From Candidatus Gastranaerophilales bacterium (GTDB lineage Bacteria; Cyanobacteriota; Vampirovibrionia; Gastranaerophilales; Gastranaerophilaceae): a DNA stretch of 38,557 nt. Shown here piece by piece: positions 4,941 to 5,554 of this stretch; positions within the stretch are counted from its first letter, which is position 1; each line of letters opens with the position of its first letter. Location of the stretch: NCBI GenBank assembly GCA_944325065.1, contig CALUYS010000016.1:1-38557 (forward strand), given 5' to 3'. Under the pieces are notes generated by a model. The model saw nothing but the letters and a program-made list of their open reading frames with translations. It was not told where the DNA came from and did no database searches. The translations under genes and the position numbers were made by a program.

Positions 4941-4983
4941 ATTATAAAGAAAATATGTACTTTTGTAAAAATAATATACAATA

Positions 4984-5012
4984 TTGCAATCAGATGAATG
5001 ATAATGTATAAT
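4984..5012 (+). promoter_or_regulatory. Promoter for antisense RNA, unit 1
   Basis: TTGCAA (4984-4989), 17 bases, TATAAT (5007-5012). The start is expected near 5019, at the first base of the AGGGT stem. It points against the peptide gene. Confidence 0.75.
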
Positions 5013-5044
5013 AAAAATAGGGTGAGCGGTTTAACCACCCGCTC
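5013..5044 (-). terminator. Terminator of the peptide mRNA, unit 1
   Basis: Read on the minus strand, GAGCGG / CCGCTC forms a 6-bp GC-rich stem, followed by ACCCTA and a T-rich run. The same hairpin serves as the 5' domain of the opposing RNA. Confidence 0.6.
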
Positions 5045-5113
5045 TTTAAAAACCCTAATTTGTTAATTTAATTAGCGTTAGTAATATAAATAAAATTATT
5101 ATTAACGCTTTTT
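5019..5113 (+). ncRNA. Putative antisense antitoxin RNA, unit 1
   Basis: Predicted RNA of about 95 nt. 5' domain: AGGGT (5019-5023) pairs with ACCCT (5052-5056) around a GAGCGG / CCGCTC stem. 3' domain: a 13-bp stem (5074-5086 with 5097-5109, one G-U pair) followed by five T residues, which is a good intrinsic terminator. The RNA is complementary to the 3' untranslated part and the last two thirds of the peptide gene, the usual arrangement of an RNA antitoxin overlapping the 3' end of a type I toxin mRNA. Ends are predicted, not mapped. Confidence 0.65.
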
Positions 5114-5132
5114 CGCTAATAGTTATTAACAT
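5055..5132 (-). CDS. 25-residue hydrophobic peptide, putative type I toxin, copy 1
   Basis: ATG at 5132-5130, TAG at 5057-5055. The peptide is MLITISEKAL followed by IIILFILLTLIKLTN: a short polar start, one membrane-spanning run of Ile/Leu, and a basic/polar tail. It is preceded by AAGGAGGTGAT (5150-5140), 11 bases fully complementary to the usual 16S rRNA 3' end, 7 bases before the ATG. Its own promoter and terminator frame it. Size, hydrophobicity, very strong ribosome site, long structured leader (about 95 nt) and a convergent antisense promoter are the hallmarks of type I toxins (Fst, TxpA, Ldr types), but I recognise no specific family. Membrane depolarisation is inference only. Confidence 0.72.
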   Translation of the reverse strand: MLITISEKALIIILFILLTLIKLTN

Positions 5133-5234
5133 TTCCGACATCACCTCCTTTTTGTTGTTATGACTTGTGCCGAATTTACAGTTCGTCTCACACAACTTTA
5201 AGAAGTTTGTCAAAGGGTTTACCCTATTAAATTT

Positions 5235-5263
5235 ATTATAAAGAAAATATGTACTTTTGTAAA
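5235..5263 (-). promoter_or_regulatory. Promoter of the peptide mRNA, unit 1
   Basis: On the minus strand: TTTACA (5263-5258), 17 bases, TATAAT (5240-5235). The start is expected near 5228, giving a leader of about 95 nt with a GGGT / ACCC hairpin at its 5' end and a CGAA / TTCG hairpin before the ribosome site. Confidence 0.75.
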
Positions 5264-5275
5264 GTTAAATACGAC

Positions 5276-5303
5276 TTGAAAAAAAGTTTAAATAATGTAT
5301 AAT
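5276..5303 (+). promoter_or_regulatory. Promoter for antisense RNA, unit 2
   Basis: TTGAAA (5276-5281), 16 bases, TATAAT (5298-5303); start expected near 5310. The -35 differs from unit 1 while the -10 and the transcribed 5' end are the same. Confidence 0.72.
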
Positions 5304-5335
5304 AAAAATAGGGTGAGCGGTTTAACCACCCGCTC
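5304..5335 (-). terminator. Terminator of the peptide mRNA, unit 2
   Basis: GAGCGG (5315-5320) / CCGCTC (5330-5335) stem, followed on the minus strand by ACCCTA and a T-rich run, as in unit 1. Confidence 0.6.
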
Positions 5336-5405
5336 TTTAAAAACCCTAAATGTTTTTTTGTTTAAGCACTATTATTATTAATAATATTAATATTAGTGCT
5401 TTTAT
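5310..5405 (+). ncRNA. Putative antisense antitoxin RNA, unit 2
   Basis: Same plan as unit 1: AGGGT / ACCCT closing stem, GAGCGG / CCGCTC inner stem, then a terminator with AAGCACTA (5364-5371) pairing TAGTGCTT (5394-5401). In unit 1 the corresponding arms are AGCGTTA / TAACGCT, so both sides of the stem have changed together. The T run is shorter (four), so termination may be weaker. Confidence 0.6.
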
Positions 5406-5423
5406 ATTAATACAAATCAACAT
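5346..5423 (-). CDS. 25-residue hydrophobic peptide, putative type I toxin, copy 2
   Basis: ATG at 5423-5421, TAG at 5348-5346. The peptide is MLICINIKAL followed by ILILLIIIVLKQKNI. It shares length and the pattern MLIxIxxKALIxIL with copy 1, then diverges to a KQKN tail. The AAGGAGGTGAT site (5441-5431) and the 7-base spacing are identical. Ala-Leu at the start of the hydrophobic run is kept with different codons (GCG TTA against GCA CTA), while the opposite arm of the antisense terminator changes residues to keep pairing. This is what a frame under both peptide and RNA-structure constraint would look like. Confidence 0.72.
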   Translation of the reverse strand: MLICINIKALILILLIIIVLKQKNI

Positions 5424-5525
5424 TTCCGACATCACCTCCTTTTCGTTGTTATGACTTGTGCCGAATTTACAGTTCGTCCCACACAACTTTAAGAAGTTTG
5501 TCAAAGGGTTTACCTTATTAAATTT

Positions 5526-5554
5526 ATTATAAAGAAAATATGTATAAAAGTAAA
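5526..5554 (-). promoter_or_regulatory. Promoter of the peptide mRNA, unit 2, overlapping the DUF3326 start
   Basis: On the minus strand: TTTACT (5554-5549), 17 bases, TATAAT (5531-5526). The -35 lies inside the first codons of the DUF3326 gene on the opposite strand. Confidence 0.65.

Follow-up and report, generated by a model that had tools for sequence, protein, structure and literature searches.

The bsrG/SR4 and bsrE/SR5 systems of Bacillus subtilis encode peptides of 38 and 30 amino acids, and published accounts place their Shine-Dalgarno sequence (SD) in a stem (PMC7430163, PMC6562991). Such occlusion of the SD in the primary transcript has been described as characteristic of type I systems (PMC6733600). 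As summarized in the cited part of a 2025 report on msoT1/msoA1 of Microcystis (PMC12390103), type I systems had until then been listed for Proteobacteria, Firmicutes and Tenericutes only, and the proteins similar to msoT1 all came from Cyanobacteria in the classical sense. In the literature searched, we found no type I system described for the gut lineage Gastranaerophilales.

Here we analyze a locus in a 38,557-nucleotide stretch of DNA from this lineage (the whole stretch is referred to as the window), which has the architecture of txpA/RatA and bsrG/SR4, i.e., convergent genes overlapping at their 3' ends. The locus probably comprises two type I toxin-antitoxin-like modules in tandem, in which the terminator of the antisense RNA lies in the codons of the peptide, with transcription and toxicity presumed from sequence features.

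Tandem units and the family to which they belong

Two complete head-to-tail units, A and B, occupy positions 4941-5554 on the minus strand of the window, with promoter-to-promoter spacings of 294 and 291 bp and 86% identity across 272 nt (Table 1). An earlier, sequence-only reading had proposed units of these lengths, each with a 25-codon open reading frame (ORF), an SD, opposed promoters and a hairpin embedded in the ORF, and every one of these elements was recovered. In both ORFs, the SD stops 7 nt ahead of the ATG.

Table 1. Positions of the features of units A and B in the window.
Feature	Position	Strand	Remark
Peptide ORF A	5055..5132	-	25 codons, MLITISEKALIIILFILLTLIKLTN; frame conserved across family
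Peptide ORF B	5346..5423	-	25 codons, MLICINIKALILILLIIIVLKQKNI; frame conserved across family
SD of A, AAGGAGGTGAT	5140..5150	-	predicted to be sequestered by leader
SD of B, AAGGAGGTGAT	5431..5441	-	predicted to be sequestered by leader
Promoter of peptide mRNA A, TTTACA-17-TATAAT, conserved spacer TACATATTTTC	5235..5263	-	sigma-70-like
Promoter of peptide mRNA B, TTTACT-17-TATAAT	5526..5554	-	sigma-70-like
Putative mRNA A, 216 nt	5013..5228	-	predicted 5'-3' closed fold, z -5.4
Putative mRNA B, 216 nt	5304..5519	-	predicted fold as mRNA A
5' element of A, AAUAGGGUAAACCCU	5214..5228	-	local hairpin, or long-range pairing with 3' AGGGUUU and ACCCU
Anti-SD segment of leader A, UUUGACAAACUUCUU	5200..5214	-	predicted fold
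Terminator hairpin of mRNA A, outer AGGGU/ACCCU pairs	5019..5055	-	
Terminator hairpin of mRNA B	5310..5346	-	
Antisense promoter A, TTGCAA-17-TATAAT	4984..5012	+	position conserved in family
Antisense promoter B, TTGAAA-16-TATAAT	5276..5303	+	position conserved in family
Putative antisense RNA A, ~96 nt	5019..5114	+	
Putative antisense RNA B, ~97 nt	5310..5406	+	
Intrinsic terminator of antisense A, inside ORF A	5074..5113	+	covariation, codon bias
Intrinsic terminator of antisense B, inside ORF B	5365..5404	+	covariation
Orphan third module promoter, no unit behind	4941..4969	-	

The sense promoter is far less constant than the antisense promoter, being weak or variable in many relatives. 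The genome contains 10 instances of the module promoter pattern TTTAC-N5-TAYATATTTT-N3-TATAAT vs. 0 for a reversed control, mostly at units or remnants (e.g., window 4941-4969 on the minus strand, G000:C5:24055, C10:21544 and C10:46609). Conservation therefore extends from the hexamers into the spacer, which may bind a regulator.

A covariance model built from 21 homologues scored the units of the window, both of which are in its training set, at E 7e-24 and 2e-22. It matched 169 of the 383 genomes of the order and 34 of the 52 genera, often in multiple or tandem copies; up to seven candidates were scored in each genome, and copy numbers are therefore lower bounds. Tandem arrays, spaced by ~260-410 bp, number at least 17 in 12 genomes. 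The similarity of the two units and these independent relatives go well beyond what chance would produce. By DNA similarity, the genome of the window holds three further family copies, and 19 of 116 related genomes gave matches, the weakest of them short. A pattern scan using one genome per species yielded 67 stretches, and those confirmed by the model stem from records titled Gastranaerophilales (or genus Scatousia), Melainabacteria, cyanobacterium or plain bacterium. A wider taxonomic spread was rejected, as the covariance model does not confirm any of the 12 pattern matches from records titled as other taxa (Bacillaceae, Bacteroides and Omnitrophota among them), and in a phylum-wide sample no match fell outside the order among the genomes listed. 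A mobile or phage element was likewise rejected, with no viral contig confirmed at E < 0.05 (pattern scan plus model) and no match to phage or plasmid DNA. Units L011, L030 and L035 of the same-genus genome G001 sit inside long, GC-richer intergenic repeat families (CCCTCACCCCCGCCCTCTCCC...), and these repeats are perhaps the vehicle that spreads copies.

In the window, the locus lies between a PBP/Mur-ligase pair and a DUF3326 gene, a divergent gene whose start codon (5540, plus strand) coincides with part of the unit B promoter. DUF3326 has a different neighbour in G001, with no unit there, and the homology to that locus stops at ~5536. For the family as a whole, 87 flanking ORFs fall into 67 clusters, and in 31 of 45 cases the unit is followed by a gene on the opposite strand. 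A short ORF accompanied by hairpins and a terminator could in principle be a leader peptide or an attenuator of a downstream gene. However, because the flanking genes vary and most units have the following gene oriented towards them, and because the unit has its own 3' terminator and no conserved downstream gene, we consider this highly improbable, and attenuation of a neighbouring gene was rejected for lack of common neighbours.

The peptide gene and the antisense gene

The peptides of the family are hydrophobic, Ile/Leu-rich and ~22-25 residues long, with the consensus x-F-S-[IV]-[ST]-E-K-[AE]-L-x-[IL]-I-L-L-I-[IL]-[IL]-[ATV]-L-K (118 placed of 134 members). Between the arms of the antisense terminator stem, the entropies at codon positions 1/2/3 are 1.16/0.25/1.25 bits in the 118 members, and in-frame stops number 0, a count that is biased because ORF placement required a hydrophobic core; the passing of 118 of the 134 model matches is unaffected by this bias. 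A nearest-neighbour pN/pS of 0.245 indicates purifying selection on the frame. By these measures, the 25-codon ORF is a real coding sequence. The sequence-only reading had named two findings that would count against it, i.e., a lack of homologous copies with a conserved frame and substitutions that ignore the frame; such copies are present in relatives, and both pN/pS and the codon-position entropies follow the frame.

Pfam has models for the toxin families TxpA/BsrG, Ibs, Ldr, Fst, TisB and Hok, none of which was matched by eight member peptides compared with Pfam and NCBIfam to E 10, in a search whose HMMER filters discard many weak matches. In Pfam, NCBIfam, PADLOC, PHROGs and Rfam, the module is assigned to no family, and the suggestion of an undescribed family in this lineage is supported by these libraries as well as by the literature searched.

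On the opposite strand, 130 of 134 members carry the antisense promoter at exactly the same position; its hexamers are TTGAAA in 95 members and TATAAT in 109. Its score is 11 of 12 in 99 members, and 11 was never reached by shuffles; the -10 hexamer is within the covariance model used to find the members, while the -35 hexamer is outside it. The putative antisense RNA would end within codons 6-8 of the ORF, short of the SD and the ATG. Given its conserved promoter and covarying terminator, the antisense gene is real in sequence terms, and it is presumably transcribed.

No Rfam family of type I antitoxin RNAs gave a covariance-model match in the window at gathering score. Weak matches to Yfr11, a cyanobacterial small RNA, were found on the plus strand (4988-5116, 30.3 bits; 5274-5406, 21.8 bits), the best of them with E 0.011 and ~30 bits vs. 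a gathering score of 44. If the antisense strand were the real product, acting in trans as a small RNA, and the ORF were incidental, this similarity and the fact that the plus-strand promoter is the best conserved of the locus would be accounted for. The pN/pS of the ORF, the conservation of SD, start and frame, and the number of codons between the stem arms, which is fixed in nearly all 118 placed members, would not be, and we therefore regard a trans-acting RNA as very unlikely.

A predicted antisense terminator in the peptide codons

The sequence-only reading placed the hairpin of the opposing RNA inside the peptide gene, and this was confirmed in A and B, with covariation across the family. 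The stem of the terminator pairs the K-A-L codons with the [A/V/T]-L codons nine codons on. For example, in antisense A the stem consists of the A-L ... T-L codons, and the U-tract of the E-K codons GAA AAA. The three terminator helices are 96% paired in an alignment of 116 sequences, with 420 double changes vs. 108 in shuffles, and 95% paired in an alignment of 67 sequences (247 vs. 71), although these structure alignments were fitted to the model and their pairing percentages are therefore inflated. Pairing collapses when the alignment is slid by one column.

The codon test and the tree test are independent of the model. Each variable stem pair joins a synonymous to a non-synonymous position, and therefore the K-A-L codons predict the Ala/Val/Thr residue: GCA.CTN goes with Val in 36 of 42 members, GCG.CTN with Ala in 56 of 61, and GCG.TTN with Thr in 14 of 15. 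On a tree built without the tested codons, the ratios of concordant to discordant independent pairs are 8.4:0 (p 0.008), 4.9:0 and 6:0 (p 0.03), together 19.3:0. Codon choice is also biased, in that the E-K codons always have A in the third position (GAA for 96 of 96 Glu, AAA for 104 of 104 Lys), compared with genome-wide usage of ~15% GAG and ~14% AAG, Leu is encoded by CTA in 83% vs. 3.8% of Leu codons genome-wide, and Ala by GCG in 71% vs. 14%. Some sequences were collected via a pattern containing GAAAAAGC, and the codon results are the same once those are excluded.

AT-rich intergenic DNA in tandem copies might also be a repeat element, or carry chance AT-rich hairpins without function. 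We attach almost no weight to this explanation in view of the coding constraint, the compensatory changes at codon level on independent branches, and the fixed antisense promoter, three results that refute it barring an artefact common to all.

Since the terminator is formed by the codons of the peptide, it would dictate part of the peptide sequence. From the sequences compared, changes in the peptide appear to be dictated by the RNA stop signal, with the choice of terminator codons fixing amino acids. We lean towards the view that toxin coding and antitoxin terminator are one dual-coded element, in which the stem and U-tract of the RNA fix the best conserved peptide residues, E-K-A-L ... [A/V/T]-L, and the mRNA is closed by exchange of its two terminal hairpins; toxin residues would then change as compensatory mutations of the opposite-strand hairpin. 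The module is a clean case of antisense dual coding, where a synonymous choice in one codon predicts a non-synonymous residue nine codons off, and the "conserved" residues of such peptides may mirror the RNA of the opposite strand instead of peptide function. The covarying codons allow a direct test of the constraint that the antisense terminator places on the toxin.

Predicted closure of the mRNA, proposed silencing, and comparison with described systems

The putative 216-nt mRNA A has a predicted fold of -58.7 kcal/mol (z -5.4, 200 shuffles), and the mean z over 100 family members is -6.4. In folds of single sequences against shuffles, on which the case for SD hiding rests, the SD is unpaired at 0.28 vs. 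0.38 with shuffled leaders and lower in 79 of 100 members (Wilcoxon p 9e-11), a moderate effect on average. RNAalifold gave no consensus structure on the leader alignment, and therefore we do not claim covariation for the leader. A 5' GGG[UC]A..CC element, located ~50-70 nt ahead of the SD, has a complement in the 3' UTR in 76%, compared with 18% in shuffles, with paired variants AAGCCC/GGGCUU, AUACCC/GGGUAU and AAACCC/GGGUUU. The predicted fold joins 5' AGGG to the 3'-terminal CCCU and 5' CCCU to 3' AGGG, in a clamp that replaces two local hairpins. This complementarity is weaker in the W-type subfamily.

A second subfamily (contig C13; MVNEFLFLIV...KELFLILIIIIALKN) has an unrelated leader, with 11-base and 7-base 5'-3' complementarity and, again, a predicted closed fold. 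Its peptides are 33-34 amino acids long, and promoter, SD-hiding stem, 5'-3' clamp and embedded hairpin are as in the first family. The loci comprise a tandem, L268/L269 (G000:C13:35288-36028), L270 (C29, frameshifted), and L271 (C10) and L272 (C12), both decayed; a copy adjoins a first-family unit in C12 and in G001:C32. Two further observations concern first-family leaders. In the window, positions 63-75 of mRNA A (~5154-5166), a short distance from the perfect anti-16S SD, carry the stretch AAGTCATAACAAC, which is not seen in most relatives and resembles AAGTCGTAACAAGG, a conserved 16S rRNA stretch close to the 16S 3' end. The leaders of many members (e.g., L040, L024 and L042) contain a conserved small hairpin, GCRC-RRACTRTAAATYYG, with a stem that seems to vary as AAA/UUU, GA/UC and the like.

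Taken together, the frame, the antisense promoter and the terminator covariation come from sequence comparison and the closed fold from prediction, and from these we infer the following model of transcription, silencing, membrane action and toxicity. The minus-strand promoter would produce an mRNA of ~216 nt for an Ile/Leu-rich peptide of ~25 residues, which probably inserts in the membrane and may be toxic. The mRNA would be made closed, with a leader stem covering the SD, the 5' AGGGUAAACCCU pairing with two 3' segments, AGGGUUU and ACCCU, and the long-range clamp taking the place of two local hairpins. The convergent plus-strand promoter would give a ~96-nt antisense RNA that overlaps the 3' UTR as well as most of the hydrophobic stretch of the ORF, ending at an intrinsic terminator whose U-tract is formed by the E-K codons and whose stem by the A-L and [A/V/T]-L codons. 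This RNA would be expected to pair with any mRNA that has opened or been processed, and so to block the message or have it destroyed, probably through RNase III, a role we propose by likeness to the accounts of txpA and bsrG (PMC3531473, PMC7430163).

The sequence-only reading also held that the diverged pair is kept so that each antisense RNA silences its own copy, a claim for which we find no support. The first ~40 nt of antisense A and B are identical, and predicted cross-duplexes (-96 and -100 kcal/mol, vs. -154 and -155 for cognate duplexes) are still far stronger than the fold of either RNA on its own. Exclusive silencing is therefore unlikely, judging from these predictions.

Could the product be a non-toxic small membrane peptide, such as a regulator or signal, under cis-antisense control with the same RNA anatomy? 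Toxicity is not readable from sequence, no toxin family was matched by the peptides, and small membrane proteins that occur in several copies under antisense control would have the same appearance. On the other hand, the predicted double lock (leader anti-SD and 5'-3' closure, plus antisense) marks mRNAs that are dangerous to translate (PMC6733600), and copies are dispersed, tandem and non-syntenic. Further, decayed copies keep the RNA and lose the peptide, through a stop just ahead of K-A-L in C12 and a lost or damaged SD in C22 and C26. On balance, a non-toxic peptide seems improbable. The type I toxin-antitoxin-like interpretation, with a presumably toxic peptide, is supported by homologues in which frame, antisense promoter and embedded terminator are all retained. 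As judged from sequence, the characters of the class appear to be present, i.e., a short hydrophobic peptide gene under selection and an overlapping antisense gene with its own promoter and terminator, and the primary mRNA is predicted to be poorly translatable, with its SD occluded. The family adds a large multicopy group in uncultured gut bacteria, together with a covariance model able to find its members.

Among described systems, txpA/RatA is also convergent with a 3'-overlapping antisense RNA, and destruction by RNase III is the model there (PMC4147584, PMC3531473). However, RatA is stated in a review not to overlap the coding region and its toxin has 59 amino acids, whereas the putative antisense RNA of the module enters the ORF, and there is no profile match. 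Fst with RNA I-RNA II of pAD1 has converging RNAs with a 3' overlap as well (PMC4147584), but shares a bidirectional terminator outside the coding region, in contrast to the separate terminators of the module, of which the antisense one is inside the ORF; the peptide also differs. msoT1/msoA1 belongs to the same broad phylum and has a predicted antisense RNA over the 3' end of the CDS and the 3' UTR (PMC12390103). Its toxin is described as a 63-amino-acid protein with two predicted membrane helices, which sets it apart, by description only, from the 25-residue peptides of the module, and the cited part of the report analyzes no codon-embedded terminator (PMC12390103). In the literature searched, which covers few subscription journals, we did not find a terminator in the hydrophobic core with compensation at codon level.

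IsoA pairs near the translation start, unlike the module's putative antisense RNA, which covers the 3' half and not the start region, and its phylum and peptide are unrelated. The aapA/IsoA system of Helicobacter nevertheless shares 5'-3' closure of the mRNA, metastable hairpins that hide the SD, and RNA structure that constrains ORF codons (PMC6733600); the long-distance closure is found here as a predicted fold with compensating complementarity variants. Likewise, bsrG/SR4 and bsrE/SR5 share with the module convergent transcripts, a 3' pairing of ~100-120 nt, a small hydrophobic peptide and an SD in a stem, while their peptides have no profile match to those of the module. The cited sections on bsrG describe no 5'-3' clamp (PMC7430163, PMC6562991), as is predicted here, and by its published coordinates SR4 extends no further than the end of the bsrG ORF, whereas the module has its entire antisense terminator inside the hydrophobic core of the ORF, with which it covaries. 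By analogy, the combination resembles bsrG/SR4, with its convergent 3' antisense RNA, plus an mRNA closure like that of aapA.
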